Part shown: positions 937 to 57,528 of the stretch, piece after piece
Layout: each line of letters opens with the position of its first letter
How positions within the stretch are numbered: the stretch's first letter is position 1
Source: Saxidomus purpurata
Lineage: Eukaryota > Mollusca > Bivalvia > Venerida > Veneridae
Direction: 5' to 3'
DNA length: 64,000 bases
Assembly (NCBI GenBank): GCA_022818135.1
Contig: JAFMSR010000015.1
Location: 3,335,859 to 3,399,858 of the forward strand
Made by a program: the position numbers and the translations under genes
The notes under the pieces: generated by a model
Databases searched by the model: none
What the model saw: only the letters and a program-made list of their open reading frames with translations
What the model was told of the DNA's origin: nothing

Positions 937-1145
937 TGCCATTACCTTCCAATACAAACTGAGAAAACTGTTTCACAAAAATGCGTACAATTTTCCAATG
1001 GCATTTTACGACAACACGTGTGTGGAAAAGCTTGGGAAAGACTTGTATCCGGCGTTCTATAATGCACCACTTTAACGTACAACATCGTGTGGTTAACTGT
1101 CTCATTCGTGCCAAAAACGGTTGTTCCCAAAACCTAAAATGTAAC
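937..1145 (+). repeat. Dispersed repeat, copy 1 (inverted relative to 12572-12772)
   Basis: About 200 bp matches the reverse complement of 12572-12772 with scattered differences; blocks such as ACAACACGTGTGTGGAAAAG are shared. Short ORFs exist on both strands in both copies but are interrupted, so this looks like an old interspersed element rather than a gene. Confidence 0.7.
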
Positions 1146-9807: not shown

Positions 9808-9976
9808 CTGTTTGCAATTTGCGCCGGAAGATCTATCTCTTAGTACAAACCTCAGTTTAACCGAGCACATTAATTTTAGGTTCAACGGTAAGGATGCATT
9901 TTCTGATGCCAGTCAGCATATGTATACTATTGAGCCCTACTACAATACATCAATAGATGAATTTCAAAACAGAGTG
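9808..9976 (+). CDS. Candidate upstream exon of the DSL/EGF/ZP gene (uncertain)
   Basis: Open stretch preceded by a weak acceptor (TTTAAAG) and followed by a possible donor (GTG|GTACTG). Its start phase (2) and end phase (0) equal those of the exon at 23467-23659, and the peptide has a similar texture (an NLSL versus NASV block, then a tyrosine- and proline-bearing stretch, then an arginine near the end). That would fit an upstream copy of the same module. A second donor lies inside it (AACG|GTAAGG). The resemblance is weak and the linking exon was not found. Confidence 0.25.
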
Positions 9977-11469: not shown

Positions 11470-11514
11470 ATGGAATCTATGTATATGTTCTGGCTTTTGT
11501 TTCTTACAACAGTG
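11470..11514 (+). CDS. Candidate signal-peptide first exon
   Basis: ATG at 11470 opens a 15-codon stretch with three in-frame Met codons and a hydrophobic run (FWLLFLTTV), ending at a strong donor GTG|GTAAGT in phase 0. This is what a signal-peptide exon looks like. It cannot splice directly to 13661, which needs phase 2, so an intervening phase 0-to-2 exon would be required. That is the phase of the exon at 23884 in the second module, which makes the idea plausible. A chance match is possible. Confidence 0.3.
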
Positions 11515-12571: not shown

Positions 12572-12772
12572 AATTTCAGATCTTTGGAACGACAGTTTTT
12601 GGCATGAATGAGACAGTTTACCACACGATGTTGTACGTTAAAGTGGTGCATTATAGAATTCCGGATGAGAGCCTTTCCCAAACTTTTCCACACACGTGTT
12701 GTCATAAAATGCCACTTGAAAATTGTACACATTTTTGTGAAACAGTTTTCTCCGTTTGCGTTGGAAGGTAGA
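12572..12772 (-). repeat. Dispersed repeat, copy 2 (inverted relative to 937-1145)
   Basis: Reverse-complement match to 937-1145 over about 200 bp. The two copies differ by scattered substitutions and short indels. Confidence 0.7.
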
Positions 12773-13660
12773 GTCAATTTATTATATTGTTAAGGAAAGT
12801 TACAGTTCGCAAACGTCATCAGTTTACATGTACACAGAATTTGTGACAAGGTTCGAAGAAAATGTTGAAAGTTAGTACAACGGTTATGCGCATAAAAATC
12901 TTAGGAAAGACGGTTTGCAGAACTTCAAATATAAACAGCTGTTGTCAATGGCTGTTATTCCAAAGTTACGGTTTTAACATCAGTAGTGATTTTGCTCAAC
13001 TATACGAGGAGGTGTTTATGGAAACAAGCCGTTTAAAATACAGAGAAATCATGGACTTGTGTGAAAGAGCGCATGTACTTATTGTTACCTATTGTTATTG
13101 ATACTTGTTTTATTAATGCATGTGAAAACACTTCAAAACTGGAATAGTGTACACACTGGATAGAACGTTAAAATAGTACCCATTCCATGCTGTTAACATT
13201 TTATTACATCTACGTAAAAGAACTCGTTCTATAATTTATCAAATGTCTCCAACTAAAACTGTTACATTATTATGTCATGTGCATTCATACAATTACTATT
13301 TATTGTTCGTCAGTTTTGTGTACTAATTGATTTGGTTGAAATAAAGTTGAAAACTGTGTCTTTCTATTTGTTACAGTAAAGGTCTGCATTCATAAAAATG
13401 ATATCATGCCATTAAAAAAAATAATTTACAAAGTATATAAATCATGCAAATAAGATGTTTAATTGTAATATTTAATACTGAAATAGAATTTGTTATCATT
13501 TACAAACGGTATAATTTTGAACTGTACATTAATTTTGTATTTATTAATAAAGGTATGTTGCCTTATGTATTAGTCTAGTCCGGTAGGATAAAGCAAGTAA
13601 ACGTAACTAACTTATTTCCACTGCGTAAACACTTACAAAACAATTGTATTTCATTTTAAG

Positions 13661-13760
13661 GTGTGAAAAAAATATTTTCAACATAACCTACAATTACGAC
13701 ACCAAAAGACTCTATGACGAGAACTATGGCGTTGGAAGTACAGATATAAAGATTATATCT
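13661..13760 (+). CDS. Exon: MNNL-like segment, module 1
   Basis: Acceptor TTCATTTTAAG and donor TCT|GTAAGT; phase 2 to 0. It encodes about 33 residues starting CEKNIFNITYNYD. Its phase and position match the exon at 27602-27734 of module 2. The preceding exon, which should be phase 0 to 2, was not found. Confidence 0.7.
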
Positions 13761-16700
13761 GTAAGTAAATTTCTTGCTTAAATACCATTTCCCTAACACA
13801 CGCTTAAAGCTGCTCGTTCACAGTTTCACAAAATTAAATTTCTCTAAAATGATATACTGAAACATAAAATGTAAAAGAAATAGCTATAATCAACAACACA
13901 AGTAAAGAATCTACATAGCAGTTTGCGAAAATATGTTAAAAATGTTGATAAGTTTGACTTTACGGCACCGCTATATTATATGGTGATCCGGTGGACGAGT
14001 GGTTTATGCCCTGGACTACCCATCCGGAGGTCCCCTGTTCGAATCTCGGCCGGGGCACTGGAAATTTCAGAAACGCTGTTCAGTGTTTCCCCACCTATCT
14101 GAAATGAACTGGTTAGAAACCCCGGGGTAGTCTCGCGTGTATCGGTGCTATACACCGGGCATGTAAAAGAAAAGAGCTAGAGTCTGGTACCCGGATTCCC
14201 TTGTATCTGCTTCTGTCTTTACAAAAAAGGACCACACTGGTAATAAGAGCTTGCTCTTTATTGTGTTATACTTGGTACTTGGTACTGAAAAAAATACATA
14301 CATACATATGTTTATATTGAAAATTCAAACGCGTTTGCAACTCTTTATAACATGATAGCGTCTAATTTCAAAAACACAGAAGCACTTTACAGGAATTTAT
14401 ACTGGAACAATTTTATAATATGATTCGTTCTAAAACATGTTAATTTCTAACAGTTCGATTAGGTTTTTTTCATCAAAATGTGGAGCGAGTATCTTTAATA
14501 TTTTAAAACTGATGTCCTTTTTGTTTTAGATGATCTTGTTTTTTTTTATCTGTATGATACACATTTATGCTTTGTGCTATTTTACAATTTAAGAACGAAA
14601 ATGTAGTCATACATGTAACGGAAATAAGGACAAACCTGATGACTGGAATACAAGAGACAATTCCAGTTGACAGATTCACGATGAAATATACACATCCAGC
14701 GTCCGCGAGCTTCTGGTCTAAAGGTTTAACTCTATCGGTACTTCGAAATAAGGCAAGGTATGTGAAACAAAGTATATTAAGCTGATATGTAGATTTTGTA
14801 AATAACAGCACAATACCATTGAAAAACACGAACGGTTGGTTGAATTACAGCCATAGGTTGCAGAGAAAGCGTGCAGACAAAACTATTCTTTTGACAAAAA
14901 TAAAAAGACCATATCACCATGAAAATGTTTTGAAATAGAAAAAAAATTACTATGCATACATTTTATCTTCTCTTAGTAATGACGCGTTTCCTGAAGTTTT
15001 TGTGAAATTCCTGCGTGATTGTGGTGTATTTCGTGAAATGTTATCAACCAGTAACATGTTGATAATATTTATACTTCCCTTTATTAGTGAAGGTTTCCAT
15101 GCCGTGTGTTGATTTCCATTTATGCATTAGGTTTACTTTGTTTTCTCCATATGCAATATAGAACAGTAAATATTGAACTGGCGTGCATGTTTCCGTCCAA
15201 GATCACCATTTACAACTTACACACAAATGACGAAACCGTGGCAGCTAGGAGCTTTATGTTAGGAATTTTTTTTATGTGTATGTCAACTGACACTAGCATA
15301 TCCCTAGAAAATGCTTCGAAAATAATTGTTGAGTTCAAATATCTAAAACAAGTTCATTTTATATTTAGATTGCCATATTGTCAGTCATAAACAATAAGCA
15401 TCAACTATAAATAACTTTAGATGTCCACATGTTTTTGTTTTTTTTTTCCGGTTCCGGTTTAATGAATGTGGTCGGACATTCTCGACAGAGAACTTTATTT
15501 TTACTACATAGCAATTTATTTCGCAATAGTGAACAAAAATGGATTTAGAAAGTGCACAAAAGGATTGTGAACTATCTGTGGCACAGAACAGTGGCCGTAA
15601 GACCCCCGGAAACGTAGTTCCAGTGTCTAACATGTTTTCTTTATTGAGTGACAACGTGGACAATGACCAAGATGGCGGGGAGGGAACCGATACCGTTTTC
15701 CGGCCTGACGATACGGATTCTAACTGGACTGAAATTGTGAACAGCCGCAAAAATAAGAGATATAGAATAAGCTCTGGTGGTAAGAGTGGCGATTTAAATT
15801 TATCAGAATATCAAAACCTTTCTATGGATGATAAATTATCATTACTGTACAGTGAAATGCAGTCGAATAAGCAAACAATGACCTCCATTGAACACAAGAT
15901 TGACCAATGTGTAAGCTTACACAGTAAAGTAGAGAAAATTGATATATGCATGAGTGAGCATGAAAGGAGATTATTATTGTTGGAATATAAATCGCTTGAT
16001 ATTGAGGCAAGAACCAGAAGAAATAATTTAATCTTCGGTGGGTTCACCGAAACAAGGAATGAGAACTGTTTTGAAAGAGTACAGACGTTTCTGCAAGATC
16101 ATCTAGAGTTTACGTCGGATGTGAAAATGGAGCGGGCGCACAGACTCGGTCGATTTAAGCAAGGCAGCACTCGTCCAATTATTGTAGCATTTAAGGACCA
16201 CCAGGACACCGTGTCTGTTGTTACAAGAGCTTTCATGCTAAAGGGCTCTGTGTATAATATAAACCGCGACTATCCTCAGGAAATCGTTAAAGCCAGGAAA
16301 GGCTTATGGGGCAAATACAAGAACATGCGCGCGGAATTCCCGGATGATAAAGTGTCTCTAGTCTATCCTGCAAAAATAGTGATGAATGGGCGCGTAATAA
16401 TCAACGCTTTTCCAAAGTGGGACTATATCATGCAAAGAGACCGCATCACTCATACATCAACCGTATTGTTCGATATAAACAAAATGGGACATCCTGCAAA
16501 GCGTGAATCTCGTGCACCAGACAGTCGTCAGCTGGGCAGTGTAAATAAACACCCACATGCTGCTATGAGCAGATCCAGCTCTCGTTCGGATATGTCGATT
16601 CAGCCAACATCACCAGTACGCTCTAATAGGCGTAGTCGCTCGAAAACACCAAGGGAGCAACGGGGTGGGCGTAGGCGTGCGCCCTCAAGATTGCGTAGTC

Positions 16701-19700
16701 GTGGACGTTATGTAGAAAATTCCAGCCAAAGTATCGTGCGACCATGGTCGACTGCTATTTCTGATGATCCTCCAACTTGTGATGAGAAATCACAAAATGT
16801 TTCTGCTACTTAGGACATACGGGAGAAAGCGTTTAATGGTTCTCTTGAAGACTGTTCTCTGAAATTAGGGACCTTAAATGTAAGTGGCCTACAAAAACGT
16901 TTGAACTACCCGGACTTTATCGAGTTTGTGTGTTTGTGTATTGTTGAGTCACATACAGATGTTTCTGATATTGTAAGTATAAATGGATATACATATTTTC
17001 CAAAGCATAGGAAACAAGCATATAAGCGTAAGTCTGGTGGTATCGGTATTTTCATACGTAATAAATTTGTCCCATTTATCGAAGTTCTTCAAAACGATAC
17101 TGAATATGTACTGTGGGTATTATTTAAAAGAGAGATATGTTATTTAAATGAAAACTTACAACTTGGTTGTACCTACTTACCTCCGGAAAACTCTAGATTT
17201 TTGAATGAAGACAATCTCAGCAAGTTTGAAAATGAAATAACTCAAATGTGTACTAACTATAGATACGTTTACCTAGCTGGAGATTTTAACTCGAGAGTCG
17301 CAAAATTAAAAGACTTTATCCCCTCAGATTCATATTTTAACGATTTTTTCTCAATTGACCATGATTCTCAGTCACATATGGATAAGTACACTATTTTGGA
17401 AAATTTGGGTGTTCCCCTAAATAGAAATTCATCTGATAACAGAACTAACACACTAGGATTTAGGCTTATTGATATTTGTAGAAATAATAATTTATTCATC
17501 CTTAACGGTAGGACTGGTAAGGACTTAAACGGCATGTATACATTTAGGAATAGATCTGTAATAGATTATGTAATAGCAACTGCTGAATGTTTCGAAAATA
17601 TTTTAAACTTTGAAATTTGCGAAACCGATTCGCTATTCTCGGACGGACATAATGTCTTATCATGGGAAATAAAGGGCAAATATTTTTTGTCGGAACAAGC
17701 CAACTTATCTGAAAATAGCAATAAGCGTAAACCGAAATGGGATAGCAATTTATCGTATCAATTTGTGAATAATATTGATATGTCATGTCTTGATCAAATT
17801 AATGCTCAGTTACAGACACAACCTCATAACCAACAAACTGTTGAACAAATTACGTCGGACATACAACAGTTATTTGCCGATTCGGCCAGTGAAACTTTTC
17901 CAGTCACGGTAAATCATGTTAATAATAAAACTTATCACGGTAATAAACCATGGTTTGGTTCCCAGTGCCATAAAGCACGGGTAAATTATCATGATGCAAG
18001 GAAACTGTATCAAGAAAACACTTGCGAAAGTAATAAGGTTCGGTTACGAAATGCTAGTAAAGCATTTAAGCGTACAATGAATTTCCATATATCAAAATAT
18101 AAGTTTAGTAGAGCTAACAATCTCAGAAGCCTCCACGATAAAAACCCTAAAAAATATTGGAAGTTCTTAAATGACATCAAACCTAAGCAGTCAAATGACG
18201 CCACACCGTCTATCCAGGAGTTTTACCAGCACTTTAAAGATGTAAATTCAGTAAGTAGTCATGATCAATCTCAGAGTGATACTGAGTACTTCGATTTTCA
18301 AATTACACAGAATCAAACAGAGTTTTTAAATAACCAAATTACGGAAGATGAAGTTGTAAAATGTATAAGTAAATTACAGAACGGTAAAGCATCCAGTTCT
18401 GTAGATAATATAAGAAATGAGTATATCAAATGTACCAAAGATTTACTGTTAAATACGTACGTTAAACTTTTTAATGTAGTACTTGAGACTGGTTATGTAC
18501 CCAGTACATGGTTGGAGGGAGTTATCATCCCAATATATAAAAATAAAGGTCGCCCAGAAGATACAAATAATTATAGGCCTATCACTATTCTAAGTTGTCT
18601 GGGCAAACTTTTTACCTCTGTACTTAACGCTAGACTCACTACTTTTTTAGAAGACACTGGCATTTTAAATGAAAACCAAGCTGGCTTCCGTAAAGGGTAT
18701 TCGTGTACAGACCACATCTTTACACTACACTCGCTTATACAACTTTTAAAGTCTAAGAAGTCAAAGCTTTTCTGTGGTTTCATTGATTTCTCTCAGGCCT
18801 TTGATAAAGTTTGGAGGAATGGTCTTTGGTATAAACTCATGAGAGATAATATAAACGGTAATTTCTTTAGAATTATACTTAACATGTACCAAAATATGAA
18901 ATCGTATGTTCAACATAATGGCCATATGTCCGAATCATTCGTATCCGAAATCGGTGTAAGACAAGGAGAAAATCTTTCTCCTGCGCTTTTTTCATGTTTC
19001 TTAAATGATTTAGAGGCGTATATGCAATCCTCGGGTAGCATCGGTGTTGAGTTAAAAGATCAACAAAATACTACGTTGTGGCTTAAACTGTTAATATTAC
19101 TCTACGCTGATGACACGATTATTTTGTCTGATAACCAAGACGATTTTCAGTACAGCCTCGATTTATTTAATAATTATTGTGATACTTGGCATCTTAATGC
19201 TAATCTCAACAAATCGAAAGTTATTGTTTTTGGTGCACGTAACACGCGAAATTTTCATTTCAAACTCGGTGCACAGGAATTAGTAATTGTGGATACATAT
19301 CATTACCTAGGCATGGAATTTTCTAGTAATGGATCGTTTTTAAAAGCTCGTAAACACGTTGTCGAGCAAGCAAAAAAGGCCATGTATCTGCTGTATACGA
19401 GAGTAAGATATGCAGACCTCCCAGTTGATTTAATTTTAAAACTGTTCGACCATACTGTTTTACCAATACTAACTTATGGTAGCGAAGTCTTCGGTTTTGA
19501 AAATTTAGATATAATTGAAAAGGTCCACAATGACTTCTTACGGAAAATAACTCATGCTAAAAAGAGCACACCAATTTATATGCTTTATGGAGAACTAGGA
19601 AGATACCCGATCTCAGTTGTTATTCAAAGCCGCATGATCTCTTTTTGGAATAGATTGATGACTGGCAAAACTCAGAAAATTTCTTACCAAATATATGAAT

Positions 19701-22700
19701 ATATGCTTATGCAACCACGTGTAGAATATAAATGGATTGCTAAAATTAAAAATATACTTAACTCTGTCGGAAGACCTGATCTTTGGCAAAATCAAGATAG
19801 TTTACTAAGTAAAAATATTGGTGGAGTAGTTAAACAAACCCTTATCGACCAATATAAACAGTCATGGAACGTTCAGCTACAGCAATCAAGCAGAGGTTCT
19901 TTATATAACAATTTAAAGATAATCTCTGTTTTGAACAATATTTCAAAATACTGCCGCAGCAAGATAGTATTGCACTTTTCAAATTTCGTACAGCAAACCA
20001 TCGATTTCCGGTTGAGACCGGTAGGTACGACGGAACAACAATTAATGAGCGCAAATGTAAGCTCTGTTCTCATAACAAAGTCGGCACAGAACAACACTAT
20101 TTACTGGAATGCGTCTTTTTCGAAACCGAGCGTAATTTGTATCTCGGTGATCTGCAAATACAGAATAATATTTATTGTTTTAAGAAACTCTTAACTTCAA
20201 AATCCCATCGTGTCTTGGGGAATGTATGTAAGTTAATAAAACACATCTTTAAACACTTTTAGCATACCGGTACCTCCAGACTATAAAAAGTTTATCTTAA
20301 ATATGTATGTATTGTATTTTGTAACTGTACTTTTAAGCTTCAGATGCTGATTTTCAATTATTTTATTACAACAAAAAAACAAAAATAATATCAAACAGGG
20401 ATGTGTTAGTCGTTATACGGTTACAATGCTCTTTTTGCTATTTGAACCACAAGTGCTCATGGCAAAGATAGTAGTAGGTGTAGGAGAAGAATAATATCAA
20501 AATTTTATGCATTTCTTCCTAATGATTTCATAAATTTTTCGAGATAGTTTTTATTTCCTAGCACTGTCTCTCTTTATTTGTAGTAACTTGCAAATGAATA
20601 GAAATTTACGACATCAGTGTACGCGCATAGTGCGTTTACTACACAGTACAATTACATTTACTACGACAATGTAGTTGTAAGCACGTGACTAAATTTCATG
20701 AATGGACAGAATCACCCGAAAGTAGTCCGTCAACGCCCCCACTTCGATAAGGCATGAGAAGCTCGTGCAAGTAGCACGCGTTTGTTTTTGTTATTTTTAA
20801 AAACGAAAACGACATATGATACTAGCATAAGTTTACTAACATGTCTACCTCCTATGTGAAAAATGCTAATGTTAGCTTAAAGCGTTAAAAAAAAAATAGT
20901 ATGTATGTGTATGTATGTATATGTATAACTTCTCCGTCTTCTCCGAATTCTTTGCCGATGTGCAAAATTAACCATACTGTAAAAGTCAATATATAGGAAA
21001 GCATTTTAATAGATGTAAGCTTTCTCCCAGCAAAACCATCATAAACCGGAACCTTTCATTTGTTCAGTAACTGGTTGTATCCCCATGTTGTATACTTGTA
21101 TACCTGGGTGTAATAAAGAATTGTTGTTGTTGTTGTTGTTCTAATACCCAGAATTCTAATGTAATTACTGCTACATGTACTTTATGTCACACGAAATAAA
21201 ACTCTGCCATTCTCATATAGTATAAGTTAAACTGAATCTTATCACAAACCTACTTCTAGCTTGAACCAAACAATTCTGACAATCGTATCATCATGGACCT
21301 ACCTTCTTAAGATAAGACCGACTCTAAAACTAATTCCAAATCCACATGTATCTAGAAGTTAAATATTGATATCTTACGCATCAAAATCACTATGCAATTG
21401 TAAAATGCTTTTAATTGGAATTCAATTATAAAATTACTTGATTTACAATATTTCAGAATTGCTTTAAGTGTGGTCGCATTTTGTGAATCTGACTGGTACT
21501 ATCCCAACAAAGGATGTTCAGAACACATTCCAGCAGATGATCTCCAGGAGGTGCATTACAGTTTTCTCCAGAGGAAACTATTGCCACAGCTTGACTGTAG
21601 GACAGAAGGTTTGTTTTCCGAGCGAACGAAGTACAATATCTTCATGTTTTTGAAAACTTAAGAGATGAAGATAAATCTATACTGGTTCTTTGTTTATTTT
21701 AAACCCAATGCTATTGTTGGCTTATTGTTTAATGTAGAATTTAAAATATAGTAGTTTTAAAACTTAAGGTTCGAATAGCCGTACAACAGAGGTAGCAGGC
21801 AATTAAAATCACTTTGTACAATTATTGTCGGCCGGATGGTTATGTATACATGGAATGTGTGTTGTGATGATCTGCTTTACATAAAAAATACCTTCGGGAG
21901 AGAAAGCACGTCTTTTCCTCTCAGATGTTGTATGTATCATTAAGACAAGCGTTGAGCTTACCACCATCCGGCACTAAAATCGATGTGATACGGTAATCAT
22001 CCACATTTTTGCAGAGCTTCTTGCTTTACATTGTATGCCCAATAAGCCAAAAGTAAAAGCATCAGGACCTTTTTTAAAATGCGTTTTACGTTTTCATTTC
22101 AGAAACGTCAAAAATCAATTTTATGACACAGAGACCATATAAATACACTAAGAATATTCTGGAAGCACAACTTGCTAAATTTGTTGCTGACAAAGTATGT
22201 CCTATAAGAACCAACAACATAACCCTGAAGATTGTTAACGTTCGATACAATAAGTAAGCAATTAAGGTTTCACAATATTGAGCTAAATAAATTCTCTCAG
22301 TTTCATACCATTTGACAGACATGTTTTAAAACGGGAATTCAAAATCAAAGAGTACTTCACAGTAACCATCAAGCAAGTCTTGAAACAAAGTTTCTGCTGT
22401 GTACATTTTGTATCTTCTAATTACGTTTGAAAGAGACTTTGGTAACTGAGTCCTAGTTTTAGATCTATCGCCGGATGACGTTATGATTATTTCTTGGACT
22501 TTGTCATCTATATCAAGAGACTCCTGAATCAGCTTTGTGGTTTAAAGTAGATTCATGATATTCAAGGAGGTAAAATTGCGTCACGTAAAAGTATTTTCGT
22601 TTGAGTTGTACAAGAGGAGTCATTGATTTAAGCGCACTTACATGTAATATGAATCGAAACAAAATATATTTCTTTTGTAATTATTGTTCATGACAACGTT

Positions 22701-25700
22701 TTTTGGACTGTAAAAGGTGTCCCTCAACTTAATGATCTTTGTTATCGGCCAAAATTTATAGATACAATACTGTGCTCTCAAATGAAATCCCAAGACGTAC
22801 AGACACAGTACTGAGTAAACTCACATTATAACTTGAAAAGGCGTTACCTATTAAGTAATTTTCCAAATGTGTATTTCTAAACCTTGTCTATCCGATAACC
22901 ATGAGACAAAATTATAACAAATATGGCAATACATGATCATTTCGGTGAGTGGAGATTGTACTTTTGCATCTTTCGTCATGATATAAAACCAAACAACAAT
23001 AGAAATCACAATACTGTCTCCGAGCTTTTAAGAGTGAAAGACGACATAAATGGAATTTACTTTTAACATTCATTTGATATGCAAGTAAGGAGGAAGGTTA
23101 CGACTCGCTATCGACCGATTGATCTTGTATCCTTTGAATCTAATGCCTCGCTTGTATTCGCTCACTTTTCAAACCATTTTTACTGAAATAATGTAGCTTA
23201 ATTTTTCTAGTTACTGATGGATGAACACTATATGTTTGCATATGGTATTGAAGTGGTGTTAGTTCAATGAAGAACACTTTACGAACGCCAGTGTTTTCAG
23301 TTTGTATCATTCAATGTGAAAAATATTGATACAGATGTTTACATATTATTGCACTTATACGAAAGAAGATTTCGATTAACATTTATAGGTACATAATATA
23401 GTTACACAACTCTTTATTCTCTCCCTTTATATGCTTTGTAAGATTATTGTTTTGTAATAATTGCAGACCATTGCTTCGGGTAGTTTTCAGCAGTAAATGT
23501 TCACATAATATCACAGCAAACGCGTCTGTATCAGCAAAGGTTATCGAAGTTTCCGACTTGAAAGTCACACAAGCGTTATCATTCTTGTCACCATACGAAG
23601 AAAGACAATACTTCACTGACCCCGTCTCCCGGACGGACTTGAGTAGTACTGTGAATAGGGTATAAATTTTGAGAAAATATCATTTTAAAAGTGTATAAAT
23701 AATTATTACATACATGTACCTGTAATTTTATGAAAAACTTTGTTGAGTTTTAAAGCCAAAGTAAACCTAACTTGTCAAATGTTTTATAAGTTAAGAGCAT
23801 GCTAATGCTAAAATTTCACATTTTTTACATCACCTTTATAACTGTTACGGACTTTAGATAAGCCTACATTCATTTTATTACAGGGACAATTTCAAATACT
23901 TTTTCGGTTAAAACAATACTGGAATCCAAAAAGTAAATTTTACAGAAAGTCCGGGAGCGGATACCAGCCATATAGATGCCCGACAGGTGGTTGTTCGCCA
24001 CAATTTCGCTTTACATACAATGGGTAAGCATAAACAACTTACATTAGAAATGTTTTCTTCTATTATTTCACGTCTGATTCCAATGTCCAAAAGGAAGCAA
24101 AACAAGAACCTGTTCTTAACTACATAACCATAGTTTCGCACAAAACAATTGATAACAATTAGATTTTTGCTGAATGTTTTCTTCGATTATTTAACGTCTG
24201 ACTTCAATGTCTATGTTTTTAAGAATAAAAAGGAAGCAACAGGAAACAGGACACGAACTGCTTCTTAACTACATTAGCTCATGATAGTTTTGTACAGGAA
24301 AAAAATATGAACGAAGTCCAGCAGAGCTTATGCCATGGTGATTTGTCTGCCGTCCATCTATCTGTGAACATTTCCTTGATAACACTCATAGGTCACAATT
24401 TTCATGTGACTTTCATGAAACTTGCTCAGAAAATTACTTGCAACGTGTAGACGATCTCTATTGGTTTTTGTAACAGCGGGTCAAAAGTCAAGGTCATAGT
24501 CTTACTATGTACTATTACTCTGTAAGCTTTTCCATGATTACATTTCAAAAGATTTTCACAAAGCTTACTGAGAACAGTCCACTCAGTTCTGTAGAGCGAT
24601 ACTTCTTGTTATTGAACGCTAACTTTAAACAGGTAATAGGCTACATGTATAACCTTTAAATCGCTTATACTTGCATTAAATAAGCGAACGATAATGCGTA
24701 AAAATAAGTCATATTGAACTGGAACAAACATTATTACTTTTTCATATCATGCCTGTAGAAACTTCCATGTCAAGTTTAATGACAGTGTAAATTACGCAGG
24801 GCACATATACTGAAGGCAAAAAGAAACGCAGGGTAAACCTTCGTGGTGATTTGAAGGAATTTATTAGACATTATATAAAGTAGTATAATATTAGTTTCTT
24901 ACATGAGCACGCGGTTCAGATGGAAATATCCGTCACTGAGGGTAACTGGTTTGGCGGGAACGAGGCTCTGCCGAGTTCCCGCGAAACGGTTACCCGAAGT
25001 GACGGATATTTCACTCTGAACCAAGTATATCATTGTAGAAACTTTTTCTTGCATACTGTCTTGAACTTTAAAATGATGAAATAACATCCGTTCCAGCGGT
25101 GTTAGTCGTTTAATAAAATATGATTTGGAGTACTGTTACGCAGTAACTAGCCACGAAGACCGAAAGCCTGAGTGGTTTATAATTGCGCATCAGTACGACA
25201 AATTATTGTTTATTAGACGATAACAACGCTGAAAAGGATGTTATTTCGATTCTAACATGACCAGATATTACAAAAGGTGAACAAATGGAAAGCTTTATTT
25301 TCTACGCGAACGCTCATTTAACGTCATGCGGCGCAATATGACGTCATGTTTACAGCATATCGGTTCCCGCGTTGGCCATTGTTTAATATAACATATTTTT
25401 TTCTACTCTTTGTATATAGAGACAAAATCGTGAGTCATGTTAGAAAAGATATTTAAATACAAACTTACCGAAATAATGCATTTTAATGTAAAAACAAACA
25501 TTATTCAGAAAGTGACGTTACATTGTTTATAACGTTACGTCACAAGTAATTAACGCGAGTTGCCTAACATCATGGGTTTAAGATGAGATTTTCCAGCACT
25601 GGTAAAAACTGCAGATATCCCCATCTGGTATGCAAGAAAGACTCTATCTTTCATGAGGAAATCAGTTTATAAACCCTCTGAACTTTTGTTAGCCGTAACA

Positions 25701-26086
25701 TAATTGGAAGAATCAACAATTCAATATATATACATATAGTGGAATGTGTATTCGCGAGAAGTAACAGAATATTTAAGAAATAATATGTATTCATGTTTTT
25801 ACCAGTCTGAAAATCTCTTCTTTCCCCCCCCCGTGTGGTGGTGACTTTTCGTTAAAAATGTGACGTCACTTTCCCATACATAACTCTAAAGAATGTTTGT
25901 TTTTATTCAAAGCTCATTTCGGTAAGTTTGTTTTTAATACTATTTCAAAGTGAAGACGGTAGAAGAAAAGTTTCTTCCATGAATCAGCCTTCGGGAAAAC
26001 TCGGCAGACTGCCAAACATTACCTCGTGCGTATATTTCCATCTGAACCCCCCCCCCATAAAAAAAAAAAAAAAAAAAAAATATTTA

Positions 26087-26117
<31 letters not shown>

Positions 26118-29100
26118 CTCCATATTATTACGCATACGAACGACAAACGAGAGTTATTCTACCATAAACCAAACTTGTGTACTTATTATTTCGATTCTAG
26201 CACGACTTATTTGAAACAACATTTGAAGAAAATGAGAGAACTATTTTCATCGAACGTAATTTATACTTGCGTGCTATGCACCTAGATTTTGCCGTTGAAG
26301 TTTCCTCCCGCGAACACTTCAATGTGACTTTTATTCATAAAAAATGTATAGTACGATGTGTTTCAGATTTTTCATCAACGTAAACTAGGCTCATAAGAAG
26401 AAAAAAAACTTTAATAATTTTCGAGTAAATGTAACAGGAATTTCATTTATAGAAATGGTTCGAATTTTCAGGGTACGCAATAACGGTTCAAGTTACGAAA
26501 AATATTAGAAACGGATATAGATAAAAGACGTCACAGTTTCTCTTGATTAATGACGTCACTGTGTAAAATAGTAAATAAAGTCAGTGTAAATGATATCGTA
26601 ACATTAAACAAGTTGACTGGACGTGTGTCATTCATCGGATCCACCCGCTTTGCCCCAAGTCATCCACAGTATGCCATGTAAGATCCCCTATACGTCGGGT
26701 AAATTGAACAGCCGAAACACGATGCACGTACAGCGTCGTTCAAGGTCGGTTTATTGCAGAATAACCAAAATAGATTTTGTTCCACATGTATGTAAGTTAT
26801 TCGCTGGTCGTGTTAGAATGTATTGTTTGTTACCCTGCGTTTCATTTTCCTTCCAGTATATTTTTATGTTCAGACATTACCATATAAATTTACATTTCTA
26901 TCTACTACAATTGTCTTCCTTATCATGAAATAGTTACAGGGGAGCCTCGTTTTGGTCCATTCACATAGTATCACATTTTTACATCCGGAAGGCGGCACTA
27001 CTTTAAAGATATCGCACGTTTTTTTAACACGATAATATCGATGTAAAAGCTTTAACTGAAATCTTACATACAATTGCTTTCAAAGTGACCATCAAACTTA
27101 CAACATCAAAGATATTAACTCCTTAAAAGCGAATATTACGAAAGCTACAACACATGTTTGAATCGCTACAAGAGTTTTATTCATATTAAATAATAATATT
27201 TAAAAGCATTAAGATCCTGTTGACTATCCTTGTCAAAGAACTGAAAATTGAAAAACCACTCAATTCGTTTGGTATATTTTGTTTTGTATCTGTCATTAGG
27301 AGAAGTAACTCAATATCATTGACTTCTCAAGCATTTTCAAAATATTCCTAAGGCTTGTGTTAAAGCAATTTTCTTGACCAAGTTGTAATATATCATCGAA
27401 CGCAACCAGGTCAATCTGCGTAAAAAACTATATTATTAATTAGATACATGATTACGTAATGTTAACTCAGACAAAAGCCCCGTTGATTTTGAAAATTTAT
27501 GGAAATATCCTTCTTTGAAACTGAAAGAATACCTCTACTGGGTATTTTAAAAGATATTTAACAGTATGCGCTTGATAACATAATAATTATCTAAATTTCA
27601 GAGCAAAACAGAACATACAAATTAAAGGTCAAGCAGGAGATCATTTTCAAGACTGTTTTGGGAAACTCGTTAATCCTCAAAATACAAGGGTGCACACAAG
27701 TAATAGCGTACTGTTGCACAATGACAAAATATGGGTATTTACATTTATAATTACTATAAATGTATGCAGTCATATTTTGAATTTCTGACAATGTGCCGAA
27801 ATGATGTGAAAAGGAAAACGTTTCAAAAATAGCATGACGTCAATCATACTTTACTGATAACAATATGTTGTTTTTAACATGTGTCGTACTGATAATGACA
27901 AAATGCATAAATTTATCTAAATTAATAGATGTTATTAAACATGCGGATTTCGAACAGTTGATTACCATTGAAGACATATCAATCCTTTTTATTGAGATCC
28001 GTATTTTAAATAATGCCTTTCTAAAGAAAGAAAAGGTTTACACAACGGCAAATATTTTCAATTAAATGATAAATATAACGATTGCAAGTAGAAGACATGT
28101 ATAGTTGATGCTATCTTTTTTCAGGACAAGAAAGTCCCACTCCAGTTGGACATCTATCATAATAATGATAATTCAACGATAATTGGATTTTTAAATATCA
28201 GTTTAGAGTCTATAGATACAGTGAGTTCGAGTTACTCAACAGCACATCCGAGGATAGTCAGCACAACTATACATGCTGTTAATGTAAGGTAGGTATACAC
28301 TGTTTTCGAACGTTCGTTACAGTTCACGTTCGTTACTGTTTCTTACTTAATTAAAAGCGACGGGTCTTTACTTGTGCTAATTTTTGGAAAAGGTCGTTTT
28401 ACTATTTATACTTTACTGTTACTATATCAAAATGTGACCACTATACTCGGCATATTATATATTTGAGTGTAGCGTAGAGGTGGAAGTTATGGTTTGGTGT
28501 TCGGAGGGCTTCTATGGACCAAAATGTAACGAAACATGTCCGAGTAATGACAGTAGCTGTAACATTCCGAAATGCACAGGTAACATGTTTAGTCGTGTGA
28601 TGTTTACAATAACATTGATTATTTTCGTCTATAGTTTTTCCAAAACTGTTTCATATGACTATAAGCAATATATGTACCATATGACATATGTATAGATCTA
28701 CAATAAAAACGAAATAAATTTATACAGGTGTATAAATTTTCTTTGTTCGTATTGCCGTACGTCCGCCAAAATTTAAGTCACGCGCAGCCGAGAAACACAT
28801 TGAAAATAGTAACCAACTTGAATGTAAAATTGTGCACCGGCTGTAACTACTGCAATGGTTGAAAGGGTGAAAAGCTAACAACGTAATTTAACTTAAGATT
28901 TCCTGATCATACTTACATTTATAGTTTTGCATTATAAGGTGAAAGCCGAGATCTAAAGTACTGGCATTTTAAATATCTGTATAAAAGAGTGACGCTGCGT
29001 TCAATGCTCCATGTTCATGTTAGACTTATGTTAAGAATCTAGTATTGGTCCTTTTTTCTTCAGCCGAAGTAATTAACTCCACACTTACTGACAGATACTT

Positions 29101-32100
29101 TAATTGCGGTACAGGCAATTGTACCAAAGGCAAGTGTATTTGTCCACGTGGTCTAGCAGGTGCTACGTGTAATACCAGCAACTCCTATCACATACTCCTT
29201 TTCAACAAACACTACAACTTTAAGTCCAATGATGCAACACACCCGGAGCATTGTCAAGATAACTTTGAAGGTTTCAACTGTGATGAAATAGTTTATTGTT
29301 CTAATCATCTCTGTAAACACGGAAGCTGCTACAGTGATATTAATAGATATGTTTGTTCGTGTGATAATGGATACCGAGGATATAATTGTGATGTGGATAT
29401 CAATGAATGTTTGAACGTCACCTGTAACAACAACGGCACGTGTATTGACAGGGTAGCAAACTACACGTGCAACTGCATCAACGGATATACGGGAAATAAT
29501 TGTGAAACTGACATCAATGAATGTTCCAACGTCACGTGTAACAACGGCATATGCATTGATCAAGTAGCAAACTACACATGCAACTGTCTTAAGGGATACA
29601 CAGGAGGCCATTGCGAAACTGACATCAATGAATGTTTGAACGTCAGATGTAACAACGGCATATGCATTGATCAGGTAGCAAATTACACATGCAACTGTCT
29701 TAACGGATACACAGGAGGCCATTGCGAAACTGACATCAATGAATGTTTGAACGTCAGGTGTAACAACGGCATTTGCATTGATCAGGTAGCAAATTACACA
29801 TGCAACTGTCTTCAGGGATACACAGGAGGCCATTGCGAAACTGACATCAATGAATGTTTGAACGTCAGGTGTAACAACGGCACATGCATTGATCAGGTAG
29901 CAAATTACACATGCAACTGTCTTCAGGGATACACAGGAGAACATTGCGAAACTGACATCAATGAATGTTTGAACGTCAGGTGTAACAACGGCACATGCAT
30001 TGATCAGGTAGCAAATTACACATGCAACTGTCTTAACGGATACATAGGAGAACATTGCCAAACTGACATCAATGAATGTTCAAACGTCACGTGTAACAAC
30101 GGCACATGCATTGATCAGGTAGCAAATTACACGTGCAACTGTCTTAAGGGATACACAGGAGACCATTGCGAAACTGACATCAATGAATGCTCGAACGTCA
30201 CGTGTAACAACGGCACCTGCATTGATCAGGTAGCAAATTACACATGCAGCTGCATCAACGGATATGAGGGAAAGAATTGTGAAACTGATATCGACGATTG
30301 TGTGAACGTCACCTGTAACAACCACGGCACGTGCATTGATCAGGTAGCAGACTACACATGCAGATGCATCAACGGATATGAGGGAAAGAATTGTGAAAAT
30401 AATATCGATGACTGTTGGAACGTTACGTGTGACAACCATGGCACGTGCATTGATCAGACAGAAAATTACATATGCAATTGTTTGACTGGATATACCGGAA
30501 GTAATTGTGAAATCAATGTTGATAAGTGTGCAAACCGGACATGTGGAAGTCGCGGTACGTATCTTATTTCGGCTTTTGTGTTACTGTTATACAGAACAGT
30601 CATTGTTTATAATAATAATACCGTTTATCTAATCAACAGAAACTATTTGTTTTGAAATATATAAGTATTTGGGGAGAGCTTAGCTCTCTGATGTCATAGT
30701 CCCACTTATTGGAAAAATAAGTGAAATGATTATATTCATTTAATTAAGTTACATTCATATTGTATAGTCAATATGGAAACTACAACTTTCCTTTTTGAAA
30801 GAATTATTGTTATTGCTTAAATCATAATTCACATATCGTTTTTGAAAGTCTTCTTGGGGTAAGCTGTCAGTTAAGAAACGTTTGCCAGAGTCTACTGCAT
30901 AAAACAGAAATGAAACGATATTTTGCATTTTCAATGCAACTGTTGAATAGTTCTGTATAGCTTTTTTCATGTTGCTTTGGGTAGAGAAGACGTAATTTTA
31001 TATAACATATAATAAAAGATAATATATAATATATAATATATAAACTAATATATAGCACAATGTCATTTTCACAAAGGGTTTTCAGTTTTCTACTACCTCT
31101 TGAGCTTATATACATATACTCGTAATTCAAGTCGGCATTTGTTCTAAATGGAAATTGTTTAATACTGTAATGTGTTGAAAAATATTTTGAGTTTTTATAC
31201 CTAAGGCCTTTAGCCAGAGGACGGCAGTTATTCTAGATGTTCAATTATGTATCGTGCTAAAATATAATATAATTTATTACATTGATCCTATACGTATACT
31301 TTAGGTCTGCAACTAGAGGATGGAATTTATTCTAGATGCACAAGTTCCGGCTGGAATATTACTGTAAACATGACGGTATTAAAACAACTGTATCCAACCA
31401 TAACGAGGCAAAATATACATTTCGGAGACAGTTCCTGTCTTGGTAGGGAGGTTGGCAGTCTGTTGATATTTCAACAAGGATTTGGAGAGTGCCTGACAAA
31501 TAAACGGGTTTGTAGCCTGTTTTTATTTTGTTTGTTAATGTAGCCGGTTTTAATAGTAATTGAGTTTTAAATAATGTCATACAAACAAAGATTCGCTAAA
31601 TTATAGAAACCAACAGAGTGAATACTCTAAGTCTGAAAAACGAACAGCCTGCAAGACAGCATTGTAGATCATGTCTCAGAAAAGGCTTATTTTACATATT
31701 TTACAGTTTTAATTTCTTCATTATATTCGGTTGTTGAGTGTTGCTGTGATGAAGTAGAAATAAATAAGAGCGGATTTCACAAAAACAGAAACGTTATGAA
31801 ATCAAAACACACAATGATTTAACAGTTACGTAAACATTAACATGTAAGTTTTGATTAAATATTTAAAAAAAATGTTAGATGCCATTTATATTTGGTTGAT
31901 TCTTGAAATAAGATAAAGTGGTTTTATATTCAATTTCTTACAGATCTCAGGGAATACTTTGCTATATGTGAACGATCTGTTTTATGCAATTTACGACCCT
32001 TTGAAGCCATTTATAATACGACAATACAAATGGACATATACGGTTGAATGTGACGTAAATCGTAACGAGGCAACGTCATCGCACGTGCATCATGACGTTG

Positions 32101-33030
32101 ATACACATCATACGGCAATTACGGGTCATTATAACATAAACATGACGTTTTTCAAAGATGTTAATTTTATGAATCAGTTGCCTGGTAACCCATTGCACGC
32201 TAATGTAGGGGATGATATATATGTGAAGGTTTTCACCACAGCAACCGACTGGACAATTAAGATGAGATTGCACACGTGCTACACGAAACCTTCAGATGTC
32301 GCAGACACGAAAACAATATACTACCTCATCAAAGATGGGTAAGTACATCGAGCAAGTCTCTATCCAGAGTTGTCGTTCCTTTCCAATCCACACACACTCA
32401 CACAGTCAACGTCCTTTGCAAACATTTGGCTGGCTTAGCGAGCGAATATTAATCTGTGTTTTCAAAATAAATATTAAATTTCATAATGAAATGGGGGTAC
32501 TGTATAAGAAAATATGTTTAAGTTTGTTACACGAGTTCTTTTACTAATACGGCTTTTTTTGCGGAGACATACCAGATTTCAAAGTAAGAGATGTACATAC
32601 GGTACCATTCTTAAGACGCTGACAGAGATAAAGACCACCGTGACGTCACGCAATACGTGGTGTATGATATCAAGTCGTGTTTAAAATGTCCATACAGAAG
32701 AAAGAATTTCAATTGTTATAGCTTTTCCGCTTTTCAACACAACACGGGAACAATGTTTATATTCAGTACATGTATAATGTATACATATTTGTACCATAAA
32801 CAAAACACGTCTATCAATTTAATTGCAGATGTGAAGTTGACAGCAATACACATATCATCTCCCAGTCTACCCACGAGACCAGGTTCATGTTTCAGGACTT
32901 CGTCTTTTCCAGCAACAGGGAGGGCCTGAACATCTACTGTAATGCTACATTCTGTGAAACAAAAGATTTCTCGACAGGATGCGCACAGTCATGCTCCTCC
33001 CCTGGAACACATGCCTTGATTGGAAAGTAG
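13661..33030 (+). CDS. Spliced gene: tandem DSL-ligand-like modules, EGF repeats and ZP domain
   Basis: I assembled 13 exons by hand: 13661-13760, 14594-14757, 21457-21608, 22103-22253, 23467-23659, 23884-24023, 27602-27734, 28125-28288, 28473-28579, 29064-30554, 31305-31507, 31944-32338, 32829-33030. Every junction has AG/GT borders and matching phase, giving about 1,197 residues ending at TAG 33028-33030. The 5' end is not resolved. The product should be extracellular. Order: MNNL-like part, DSL-like Cys pattern, linker, second MNNL-like part, second DSL-like part, about 11 EGF repeats, ZP-N and ZP-C. MNNL and DSL domains are known from Notch ligands; ZP domains polymerise into extracellular filaments. 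No membrane segment follows the ZP domain in this model, so the product may be secreted, or a final exon is missing. Exon positions and phases are seen; domain names are by pattern; Notch binding is only inference. Confidence 0.8.
13981..14290 (+). repeat. tRNA-derived SINE in an intron
   Basis: A-box-like GTGGACGAGTGG and B-box-like TGTTCGAATCTC are spaced as in tRNA genes. They are followed by a non-tRNA body and a tail with repeated ACTTGGT and ATACATACATAC. It lies in sense orientation in the intron 13761-14593. It differs from the family at 11572 and 34185. Confidence 0.65.
14594..14757 (+). CDS. Exon: MNNL-like C-terminal segment, module 1
   Basis: Acceptor ACAATTTAAG, donor CAAG|GTATGT, phase 0 to 2, 164 nt. 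The exon at 28125-28288 of module 2 has the same phases and the same length, supporting module duplication. It encodes about 54 residues rich in beta-type alternation (starting NENVVIHVTEI). Confidence 0.8.
15539..16813 (+). CDS. LINE ORF1 protein (coiled coil, RRM-like, SR-rich tail)
   Basis: 424-residue ORF from ATG 15539 to TAG 16811-16813. Residues about 95-155 look like a coiled coil; about 160-235 match the RNA-binding middle region of L1-type ORF1 proteins (motif NNLIFGGF, then ERAHRLGR); about 240-300 match the C-terminal domain (PQEIVKARKGLW). The last 100 residues are rich in Arg and Ser. ORF1p of L1-type elements binds element RNA. The TAG is in the same frame as the following endonuclease-RT ORF. 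Confidence 0.85.
   Translation: MDLESAQKDCELSVAQNSGRKTPGNVVPVSNMFSLLSDNVDNDQDGGEGTDTVFRPDDTDSNWTEIVNSRKNKRYRISSGGKSGDLNLSEYQNLSMDDKLSLLYSEMQSNKQTMTSIEHKIDQCVSLHSKVEKIDICMSEHERRLLLLEYKSLDIEARTRRNNLIFGGFTETRNENCFERVQTFLQDHLEFTSDVKMERAHRLGRFKQGSTRPIIVAFKDHQDTVSVVTRAFMLKGSVYNINRDYPQEIVKARKGLWGKYKNMRAEFPDDKVSLVYPAKIVMNGRVIINAFPKWDYIMQRDRITHTSTVLFDINKMGHPAKRESRAPDSRQLGSVNKHPHAAMSRSSSRSDMSIQPTSPVRSNRRSRSKTPREQRGGRRRAPSRLRSRGRYVENSSQSIVRPWSTAISDDPPTCDEKSQNVSAT
16814..20262 (+). CDS. LINE ORF2: AP endonuclease and reverse transcriptase, frameshifted C-terminus
   Basis: The frame is open directly after the ORF1 stop, and the endonuclease domain begins within about 20 codons (LKLGTLNVSGL) with no ATG before it. 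Endonuclease motifs: GDFN (17279-17290), then DYV and SDGHN near 17565-17650. RT motifs: YRPITIL, FIDFSQAFDKVW, RQGENLSPALF and YADD (19103-19114). The uninterrupted frame ends at 20194, but from about 19925 the family-typical C-terminus (Cys-x2-Cys then EQHYLLEC) continues in another frame to TAG 20260-20262. A one-base indel at about 19905-19925 is the simplest reading. ORF2 supplies nicking and target-primed reverse transcription. Confidence 0.85.
20263..21062. other. Intron DNA, possible LINE 3' region
   Basis: No ORF or domain recognised. Part of it may be LINE 3' untranslated sequence. Confidence 0.4.
21063..21140 (+). repeat. Non-LTR-type 3' end with (TTG)n tail
   Basis: Sequence ending GGTGTAATAAAGAATTG followed by five to six TTG units. 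Short microsatellite tails after an AATAAA-like word are typical of several LINE and SINE 3' ends. It may be the true end of the LINE upstream or a separate truncated copy. Confidence 0.5.
21457..21608 (+). CDS. Exon: DSL-like domain, module 1
   Basis: Acceptor ATATTTCAG, donor GAAG|GTTTGT, phase 2 to 1. It carries CESDWYYPNKGC, then PADDLQEVHY, then a further Cys near the end. This follows the DSL plan of Delta/Jagged proteins (Cys, YY, Cys, then P-x-DD, then HY). The phase equals that of the second DSL-like exon at 28473. Confidence 0.75.
22103..22253 (+). CDS. Exon: linker, start of module 2
   Basis: Acceptor TTTCATTTCAG, donor ATAA|GTAAGC, phase 1 to 2. It encodes about 50 residues (starting TSKINFMTQRPYKYTK) with one Cys and one N-glycosylation sequon (NIT). 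No family recognised on its own. Confidence 0.7.
23467..23659 (+). CDS. Exon: ectodomain segment, module 2
   Basis: Acceptor TAATTGCAG, donor AGG|GTATAA, phase 2 to 0. It encodes 64 residues with two sequons (NIT, NAS) and one Cys. A weakly similar exon may exist at 9808-9976. Confidence 0.75.
23884..24023 (+). CDS. Exon: MNNL-like N-terminal segment, module 2
   Basis: Acceptor TTATTACAG, donor AATGG|GTAAGC, phase 0 to 2. The peptide (GQFQILFRLKQYWNP, then paired Cys and QFRFTY) resembles the start of MNNL domains of Notch ligands, where an aromatic-rich strand is followed by N-P and a Cys pair. Confidence 0.75.
24299..24620. repeat. Old interspersed repeat in an intron
   Basis: Text-like blocks such as GTGAACATTTCCTTGATAAC, CACAATTTTCATGTGACTTT and GTCAAGGTCATAG resemble degenerate dispersed repeats common in mollusc genomes. 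It carries no ORF. Family assignment would need a repeat library. Confidence 0.35.
24893..25640. mobile_element. Long-palindrome element, copy A
   Basis: A near-perfect inverted repeat (arms about 24913-24961 and 24975-25022, 13-nt loop) is followed by CTTTTTCTTGCATAC at about 25042. The element closes at about 25576-25640 with a block containing TTTTCCAGCACTGG and the end GTATGCAAGAA, which is the inverse of TTCTTGCATAC. Copy C at 41396-41801 shares both ends. It encodes no protein and is probably non-autonomous. Confidence 0.65.
25800..26695 (-). mobile_element. Long-palindrome element, copy B (degenerate, inverted to copy D)
   Basis: Blocks at about 26462-26510 (GCAATAACGGTTC), 26528-26570 (paired TGACGTCA words) and 26660-26695 (CAGTATGCCATGTAAGATCC) match copy D at 47577-48640 in inverse orientation. 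Only one arm of the terminal palindrome remains. A homopolymer cluster (C, A, T, A runs) lies at 26047-26117. Confidence 0.45.
26047..26117. repeat. Homopolymer cluster C/A/T/A
   Basis: Runs of about 10 C, 23 A, 17 T and 14 A follow one another. Such tracts are prone to length error in assemblies. Confidence 0.9.
27602..27734 (+). CDS. Exon: MNNL-like middle segment, module 2
   Basis: Acceptor TAAATTTCAG, donor TGG|GTATTT, phase 2 to 0. It is required to join 24023 (phase 2) to 28125 (phase 0) and is open only in that frame. The peptide contains DCFGKLVNPQNTRV and HNDKIW, similar in layout to the C-x-F-G and N-x-F region of MNNL domains. Confidence 0.7.
28125..28288 (+). CDS. Exon: MNNL-like C-terminal segment, module 2
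   Basis: Acceptor TCTTTTTTCAG, phase 0 to 2, 164 nt, the same length and phases as 14594-14757. The end is placed at AATGTAAG|GTAGGT because it joins in phase to 28473. A stronger-looking donor at 28284 (AAT|GTAAGG) would need an acceptor at 28468 and would change a few residues. Confidence 0.75.
28473..28579 (+). CDS. Exon: DSL-like domain, module 2 (short)
   Basis: Phase 2 to 1, donor ACAG|GTAACA. It encodes VWCSEGFYGPKCNETC and two further Cys, the start of a DSL or EGF-like fold (Cys, FYG, Cys, Cys). It is shorter than a usual DSL domain of about 45 residues and continues into the EGF exon. Confidence 0.75.
29064..30554 (+). CDS. Exon: about 11 EGF repeats, calcium-binding type
   Basis: Acceptor TTTTTCTTCAG, donor CGCG|GTACGT, phase 1 to 1, 1491 nt in one exon. 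After a degenerate Cys-rich start come one EGF (near 29300) and ten calcium-binding EGF repeats (DINEC consensus) from about 29400 to 30520, then the start of another. Most units are 37 residues, i.e. 111 bp, and units between about 29510 and 30290 are nearly identical in DNA. Each unit has the Asx-hydroxylation consensus (CIDQVANYTC) and N-glycosylation sequons (NYT, often NVT). Such arrays form stiff, calcium-dependent rods. Confidence 0.9.
30660..31304. other. Intron
   Basis: AT-rich intron sequence including a TATAATATATAATATA tract at about 31020-31050; no gene seen. Confidence 0.6.
31305..31507 (+). CDS. Exon: ZP-N domain, first part
   Basis: Acceptor ATACTTTAG, donor CGG|GTTTGT, phase 1 to 0. 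It encodes LEDGIYSRC, NITVNMTVLKQLYP, GDSSCLG and FGECLTNK, which are the first three conserved Cys of a ZP-N domain in their usual order. The preceding exon ends in phase 1, so the join is in frame. Confidence 0.85.
31944..32338 (+). CDS. Exon: end of ZP-N, linker and start of ZP-C
   Basis: Acceptor TTTCTTACAG, donor GATGG|GTAAGT, phase 0 to 2. It contains YKWTYTVECDV (fourth ZP-N Cys), a His-rich linker, VGDDIYVKV and LHTCYTKPSD, then TIYYLIKDG, the ZP-C motif that is completed by the next exon (G-C). Confidence 0.85.
32829..33030 (+). CDS. Last exon: ZP-C domain and stop
   Basis: Acceptor TTTAATTGCAG, phase 2 start. It encodes GCEVDSNT, FMFQDFVFSSN, IYCNATFC and a Cys-rich end (GCAQSCSS), typical of ZP-C, then stops at TAG 33028-33030. 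No hydrophobic anchor follows. Many ZP proteins have one and are cleaved before it, so either this form is directly secreted or a distal exon is not recognised. Confidence 0.85.
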
Positions 33031-57027: not shown

Positions 57028-57275
57028 GGGAAATATTTTTATAAAATTTGAGAATACAAAATCATTTTTCTACCTTCTAGTTCAAGCTCTGCGTTGGAAA
57101 GAATTTGAAAACGGCGTGGCACCGAGTATATATAGTGTTCTAAAAATAGCTCGCAGACTTTCATTACGTCATGATATAGCAAAAATAAGAATTGATACTG
57201 CCGAATTAGGAAAATGCAGATGCCTTCTGTGTAAAATAAAGAGGTTTAATCTCTAGCGATTAAACTCTGTATTAT
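57028..57275 (-). repeat. Ngaro split direct repeat, internal copy A2
   Basis: About 248 bp, matching 62965-63211 with one length difference in a T run. It contains the palindrome TTTAATCTCTAGCGATTAAA near its inner end. Confidence 0.9.
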
Positions 57276-57458: not shown

Positions 57459-57528
57459 CAAAAGGGACTCGAATTTTTAAAGAGAGGACCTTCCGCCACC
57501 CGCGGTTTAACGTAACGTACGAACCCAG

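Follow-up and report, generated by a model that had tools for sequence, protein, structure and literature searches.

Can the head of a Notch ligand be carried on the tail of a ZP protein, and would it still act as a ligand there? The question is raised by a 64,000-nucleotide stretch of the genome of the bivalve Saxidomus purpurata (contig JAFMSR010000015.1, positions 3,335,859 to 3,399,858; hereafter the window, within which all positions are counted), for which an earlier note, made from the letters alone, had described a gene encoding MNNL- and DSL-like modules, EGF repeats and a ZP domain. Our analysis supports that order of a Notch-ligand-like head, an EGF array and a ZP tail, helped by two clam relatives (P0123 and P0125), and points to a predicted secreted protein in which a signal peptide is followed by one or two worn MNNL-DSL-like modules of Notch-ligand descent, then by 11 EGF repeats and finally by a ZP module, and which is probably no Notch agonist. 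Taken as a whole, this reading has in our judgement about an even chance of being right.

Fifteen exons between 11470 and 33030 on the plus strand join into one open frame of 1275 amino acids, from ATG to TAG, and in this predicted product the open chain, the EGF array and the ZP module are directly legible. All 14 introns are GT-AG and the phases agree throughout, an agreement that is not independent evidence because the borders of this gene model, read from sequence alone, were placed for fit. The 13 phase-matched exons first proposed for 13661-33030 stand at this level, each with AG/GT borders and matching phase, but they do not span the gene: its start lies upstream, and two exons (11470-11514 and 12580-12767) have been added. 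The second of these ends 2 bases into a codon, as the exon at 13661 requires, and the first was picked by a scan for a hydrophobic start followed by a donor. The most hydrophobic stretch of the protein is its N-terminus, and 38 N-glycosylation motifs occur in the predicted sequence. Below, module A denotes exons 2-5 and module B exons 8-11 running into exon 12; the exons, all on the plus strand, are as follows.

11470 to 11514, plus strand: exon 1, with the ATG, the signal-peptide-like MESMYMFWLLFLTTV, a phase-0 end and a GTAAGT donor; in phase with exon 2 at 12580.
12580 to 12767, plus strand: exon 2, start of MNNL-like module A, with the motif CC-x7-C-x3-CETVFSVC.
13661 to 13760, plus strand: exon 3, module A, phase-consistent.
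14594 to 14757, plus strand: exon 4, module A, phase-consistent; taken singly, the exon gains nothing from the MNNL profile (its score is reached by 375 of 500 shuffles).
21457 to 21608, plus strand: exon 5, where module A may close with a degenerate DSL-like stretch (FCESDWYYPNKGC...PADD...HY), from local alignment to DSL references.
22103 to 22253, plus strand: exon 6, between modules A and B, phase-consistent, without profile support.
23467 to 23659, plus strand: exon 7, between modules A and B, phase-consistent, without profile support.
23884 to 24023, plus strand: exon 8, where MNNL-like module B is proposed to begin (GQFQILFRL... CPTGGCSPQFRF), from phase fit and likeness by reading.
27602 to 27734, plus strand: exon 9, module B (CFGKLVNP), partly inside the collinear Notch-ligand-profile and P0123/P0125 matches.
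28125 to 28288, plus strand: exon 10, module B, inside the same collinear matches.
28473 to 28579, plus strand: exon 11, first half of DSL-like domain B (VEVEVMVWCSEGFYGPKCNETC), with a sub-cut-off Pfam DSL.
29064 to 30554, plus strand: exon 12, an altered second half of the DSL or a short EGF, then 11 EGF repeats.
31305 to 31507, plus strand: exon 13, first part of ZP-N (Pfam ZP-N 25.0 bits).
31944 to 32338, plus strand: exon 14, remaining ZP-N, linker and first part of ZP-C.
32829 to 33030, plus strand: exon 15, end of ZP-C and stop, with the tail ...CAQSCSSPGTHALIGK and no membrane anchor.

Exon 12 (1491 bp) encodes 11 regular six-cysteine EGF repeats, matching the number of about 11 given before. 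Its DNA is a 111-bp tandem array of 9.7 copies (29399-30481). These copies match at 89%, which makes a recent homogenisation or expansion of the array probable; with coding repeats so alike in DNA, the copy number might also differ between individuals. The ZP domain is complete, as had been claimed, with ZP-C at 69.5 bits (Pfam cut-off 24.6) and ZP-N at 25.0 bits (cut-off 24.7). Its layout had been drawn correctly for ZP-N, which lies over two exons, but not for ZP-C, which had been placed in the last exon alone and is split across the last two. The best PDB matches of the ZP tail are GP2 (E 2.9e-10) and uromodulin.

The head is where interpretation becomes harder, and here its descent from Notch ligands, supported but not proved, has to be weighed against a simpler account in which exon 11 is an ordinary EGF or laminin-type repeat, the rest of the head is unrelated to Notch ligands, and the gene encodes a plain EGFZP-type matrix protein of the kind described for molluscan shell matrix (PMC13361971). 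Pfam lists both MNNL and DSL, the families named beforehand, at the expected places, so that the names given to the head hold in part; both scores, however, lie under the cut-offs (22.5 bits for MNNL, 24.2 bits for DSL), as the simpler account would have it. MNNL reaches E 0.032 and 14.2 bits in a trimmed piece of exons 1-5 (E 0.067 and 13.1 bits in a longer piece of exons 2-7), ranking second of two families after a glycosyltransferase match of equal weakness. The trimmed DSL stretch of module B gives DSL at E 0.015 and 16.0 bits over the first half of the profile only (positions 1-27 of 46), ranking second of four, with a slightly better EGF_2 match covering the later part of the piece. For the exon 11 stretch itself, laminin-EGF reaches only E 1.4, which argues against an ordinary repeat of that type.

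Comparison with an MNNL-DSL reference profile built from six solved Notch ligands adds further points in favour of descent. Module A scores 6.2 bits against the MNNL-only profile, a value that none of 500 shuffles reaches, and among eight exons taken singly only exon 2 stands out (1/500 shuffles, against 40/500, 171/500 and 360/500 for exons 8, 9 and 10); the MNNL-like motif of exon 2 sits close after the signal peptide, which counts against the plain EGF-ZP account. Module B scores 14.4 bits against the whole profile (0/500 shuffles) in a collinear match of profile positions 82-175 to residues 78-174, and 10.6 bits against the DSL-only profile in HMMER (1/500 shuffles), whereas the best of 72 EGF windows used as a control for that profile reaches 8.7 bits. 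Its local alignment to DSL references lies above 1000 of 1000 shuffles, and in HHalign it scores 32.9 against a maximum of 22.6 among 40 shuffles.

Relatives in other clams bear on the same choice. A search with the ZP tail, over 452 candidates whose lengths ranged from 0.55 to 1.75 times that of the query and with E up to 1, found 15 proteins, every one from bivalve genera. P0125 of Ruditapes philippinarum, named 'protein crumbs-like', combines a sub-cut-off DSL (E 7.8e-4, 20.1 bits) with EGF repeats and the tail, and P0123 of Mercenaria mercenaria, named 'neurogenic locus notch homolog protein 1-like', combines EGF repeats with a Pfam ZP domain; their ZP regions are 68% and 71% identical to that of the window, respectively, and the pre-EGF stretch of P0123 aligns with that of P0125. 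Both resemble the window's protein in having a DSL-like stretch, an EGF array and a tail that ends in ...ALVGK/ALIGK, and differ from it in that their models start at the MNNL-like part or within it, their EGF repeats are other ones, and their DSL spacing is cleaner. The cysteines of this stretch are spaced 8-3-7-7-8 in both, without the CxC of EGF, which again speaks against an ordinary repeat; the spacing is 8-3-11-7-8 in JAG1, DLL4 and fly Delta, and 8-3-6-4, then altered, in the window. When P0123 and P0125 are combined into a profile, its match with module B spans 125 columns and scores 42.8, where the best of 40 shuffles scores 19.8. An NCBIfam scan of the two proteins listed nothing, and the ZP tree places the window beside P0121-P0126 without resolving its orthology with P0123 and P0125.

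A considerable body of results weighs against a Notch-ligand origin of the head or against the architecture as a whole, and should be set out together. The window's own MNNL and DSL both fall short of the Pfam cut-offs, and DSL appears only after trimming, the longer module B piece having given none. Module A is matched by 11/500 shuffles against the whole MNNL-DSL profile and by 24/500 against the DSL-only profile, where its best spot falls in exon 2, and module B by 61/500 against the MNNL-only profile. In HHalign, module A (18.4) lies under the maximum of 40 shuffles (21.9), and 14 single EGF pieces reach 25.1-45.5, overlapping module B and P0125 (44.0); HHalign therefore cannot tell DSL from EGF here. 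In favour of descent, a three-clam profile of module B, P0123 and P0125 reaches 58.6 (Prob 95.5) against the Notch-ligand profile, over the DSL and stopping short of MNNL, but this value comes from a multi-sequence profile and is not strictly comparable with those of single EGF pieces. Pfam finds no DSL in P0123, whose DSL-profile score of 5.6 bits (4/500 shuffles) is under that of the best EGF window, and no ZP in P0125, the ZP name of whose tail rests on its 68% identity. A search with the head returned no relative at E <=10 among 4873 candidates, a PDB sequence search with module B gave no convincing hit, its 6 matches up to E 10 including zinc-finger proteins and a deacylase, and AlphaFold2 models of P0125 from 15- and 2-sequence inputs were unusable (mean predicted local distance difference test scores of 39.1 and 32.8). 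Finally, the window shows no sign of how ZP polymerisation is usually controlled, because the tail has no furin-like site (R-x-K/R-R) in its last 80 residues and no hydrophobic anchor or tail. The same R-x-K/R-R site is absent from all 15 ZP-tail relatives, and 14 of the 15 have no hydrophobic end (hydrophobicity of the last 70 residues at most 0.56 in those 14, and 1.36 in P0135, which is named low quality).

On balance, the names MNNL and DSL are favoured by where the stretches lie, by the arrangement of their cysteines, by the clam relatives and by profile matches, some of which failed their controls. We consider the plain EGF-ZP account possible but doubtful: the sub-cut-off Pfam scores, the EGF pieces with equal or higher HHalign scores and the missing Pfam DSL of P0123 all suit it, and it has the most in its favour of the alternatives considered here.

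If a worn head derived from Notch ligands is preferred, it may be asked whether there are two of them. The phase series of exons 2-5 and 8-11 is identical (0-2, 2-0, 0-2, 2-1), and exon 5 aligns locally to the DSL of fly Serrate, with 12/1000 shuffles as good. Two tandem MNNL-DSL-like modules are suggestive only, because the likeness of exon 8 to an MNNL start was seen by reading only, in contrast to the motif borne by exon 2, and because of those 12 shuffles for exon 5. Exons 6-7, considered as a third MNNL, were rejected (338/500 shuffles together, 436/500 and 182/500 singly). It is tempting to speculate that in a bivalve lineage an EGF-ZP polymer has acquired a doubled Notch-ligand head by grafting. 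Surfaces of Notch-ligand descent would then stand in rows along an extracellular filament, where they may still touch Notch or may have come to serve as arms for recognising microbes, gametes or matrix partners; we regard this extended picture as rather unlikely.

Whether such a head could still bind Notch is a separate matter. Four residues of Jagged1 (F199, R201, R203 and F207) are presented as highly conserved and as part of a putative Notch-binding face (PMC3415683). In a cysteine-based alignment to these positions the window reads T, P, N and absent, so that 0/4 are kept, and P0125 keeps R203 alone and P0123 none; the contact-bearing C3-C4 loop is shortened to 6 residues from 11. The Notch-like binding surface proposed earlier thus finds no support. 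No transmembrane segment was found either, the top 19-mer outside the N-terminus averaging 1.34 and lying within the DSL region. With the contact residues lost and a membrane anchor missing, the predicted head probably does not activate Notch, and the loss of those residues is why we claim for it only derivation from Notch ligands, not membership among them. These losses bear directly on the idea of a working ligand or decoy, in which the DSL-like head would bind Notch and a ZP polymer would present or sequester the signal in the matrix. A recognisable Notch-ligand-like head followed by EGF repeats is what such a protein would have, and a mollusc Delta2 that has lost its transmembrane domain is reported in PMC8166818; with the contact face replaced, the loop shortened and the anchor missing, however, we think this quite improbable. 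Least probable of all is a split in which exons 1-7 form a short MNNL-like gene and exons 8-15 an EGF-ZP gene of their own, for although the P0125 model and the recognisable part of P0123 as aligned both begin inside module B, the intron between 23659 and 23884 is only 224 bp, which leaves little space for a gene break, and the frame is unbroken across 14 junctions.

Under our preferred reading of a secreted protein with a worn, Notch-ligand-derived head, the ZP module would join the protein into filaments or matrix, by analogy with uromodulin, and the head and EGF repeats would project from the polymer as binding arms, much as the arms of uromodulin do. The protein may belong to a combinatorial set of binding proteins that bivalves carry on ZP tails, which we propose because similar bivalve ZP tails bear SRCR, Ig/MAM, mucin-like and DSL-like heads. 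SRCR heads occur on the related ZP tails of P0127, P0128, P0130-P0133 and P0135, Ig/MAM in P0126 and P0134 and one calcium-binding EGF in P0129; P0124 is named 'mucin-3A-like', and P0121 and P0122 (both Mercenaria) carry a DSL half-domain above the Pfam cut-off. These other ZP-tail proteins, whose ZP regions show 41-71% identity, differ from the window's in their heads, and the Pfam listings examined for them contain no long EGF array. Should the head indeed descend from Notch ligands, a signalling module would have been freed from the membrane and reused on a polymer scaffold. The protein directs attention to a set of clam proteins in which one could ask if Notch binding survives in a degraded DSL, and how a ZP tail works when neither propeptide nor anchor can be seen. 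A further lesson is that an architecture of its own can lie concealed behind database labels such as 'notch 1-like' or 'crumbs-like'.

Other features lie within or beside the gene:

943 to 1140, minus strand: copy of exon 2 belonging to an inverted paralogue, 88.9% identical over 198 bp (exon plus splice sites).
4759 to 4797, minus strand: probable signal-peptide exon of the inverted paralogue, MMSFWQILFLSSA, with the same donor as exon 1.
15533 to 20194, plus strand: open frames (426 and 1126 amino acids) of an element resembling a long interspersed nuclear element (LINE), inside intron 4 (14758-21456, 6.7 kb).
26201 to 26379, plus strand: possible alternative exon with phases 0 to 2, as exon 8; not joined.

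A divergent paralogue seems to run off the left end of the window, as suggested by the copy of exon 2 and the similar signal-peptide stretch on the minus strand. It lies head to head with the gene, with about 6.7 kb between the start codons. The exon 2 copy keeps its splice sites, and its 21 differences fall at the three codon positions in 6, 4 and 11 cases; none of 300 shuffles reaches the score of 4759-4797 against exon 1, by a narrow margin (35, against a shuffle maximum of 34), and the N-terminal piece of the paralogue gives Pfam MNNL at E 0.28. An open frame near 9808-9976, whose end phase suits exon 2, was dropped as an upstream exon because the exon at 11470 fits too and is matched by a similar stretch close to the inverted copy; 46306-46407 resembles the open frame 9812-9976 (tblastn E 0.001). 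The exon-like stretch at 26201-26379 cannot follow exon 8, since it has the same phases, and gives 416/500 shuffles with the MNNL profile; it is perhaps an alternative exon. The frame 12847-13101 was omitted from the chain on reading alone.

The 1126-residue frame of the LINE-like element matches RVT_1 (E 1.3e-31) and, in the PDB, R2 and LINE-1 ORF2, and the 426-residue first frame has no Pfam or NCBIfam match. Because two adjacent long open frames persist within the intron, the element is perhaps young. Further along the window, a long open frame at 35452-36771 (minus strand) encodes a rhodopsin-type G-protein-coupled receptor (Pfam 7tm_1, E 5.9e-30), and two minus-strand regions, 42962-45028 and 50006-52318, are 72% identical in DNA over about 2 kb, with frames that were taken, by reading only, for receptors combining Ig and TIR. 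A minisatellite of 32-bp units (about 82 copies) at 53093-55717 has long open stretches on both strands. Frames at 57029-63211 (minus strand) read, again by eye only, as a tyrosine-recombinase retroelement, and 248-bp direct repeats that are 99.6% identical (57029-57275 and 62964-63211) flank them.

How, then, does the predicted protein compare with known systems? Canonical Notch ligands have a single head of this kind and a membrane anchor. Delta and Jagged ligands share with the window a signal peptide, MNNL, DSL and EGF repeats in that order, and their contact residues and anchor were not found in it; the window's protein lies under both the MNNL and the DSL cut-off and departs from the 8-3-11-7-8 spacing of these ligands. 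A limited literature search found no paper pairing a ZP domain with a DSL domain; for DSL together with zona pellucida it gave no bivalve paper, and none among the mollusc matches listed, nor did it return one naming both MNNL and DSL in connection with Notch-ligand evolution in molluscs. DSL genes are expanded in bivalves, according to PMC8166818, so that reshuffled DSL domains are not unexpected there. The EGFZP and EGFL proteins of molluscan shell matrix are alike in combining EGF with ZP, and the predicted protein has what marks the EGFZP type, namely EGF repeats followed by ZP, a signal peptide and no anchor; no DSL or MNNL head is named for them in the portion of the source available (PMC13361971). 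Uromodulin and GP2, the best structural matches, carry D8C where the window has its DSL-like head, and their precursors are anchored by a cleaved C-terminal pro-peptide that was not seen in the window. They share with it a ZP tail and EGF-bearing arms, and in uromodulin a long linker connects the ZP modules, while the EGF-bearing arms stand out from the filament (PMC7486124).

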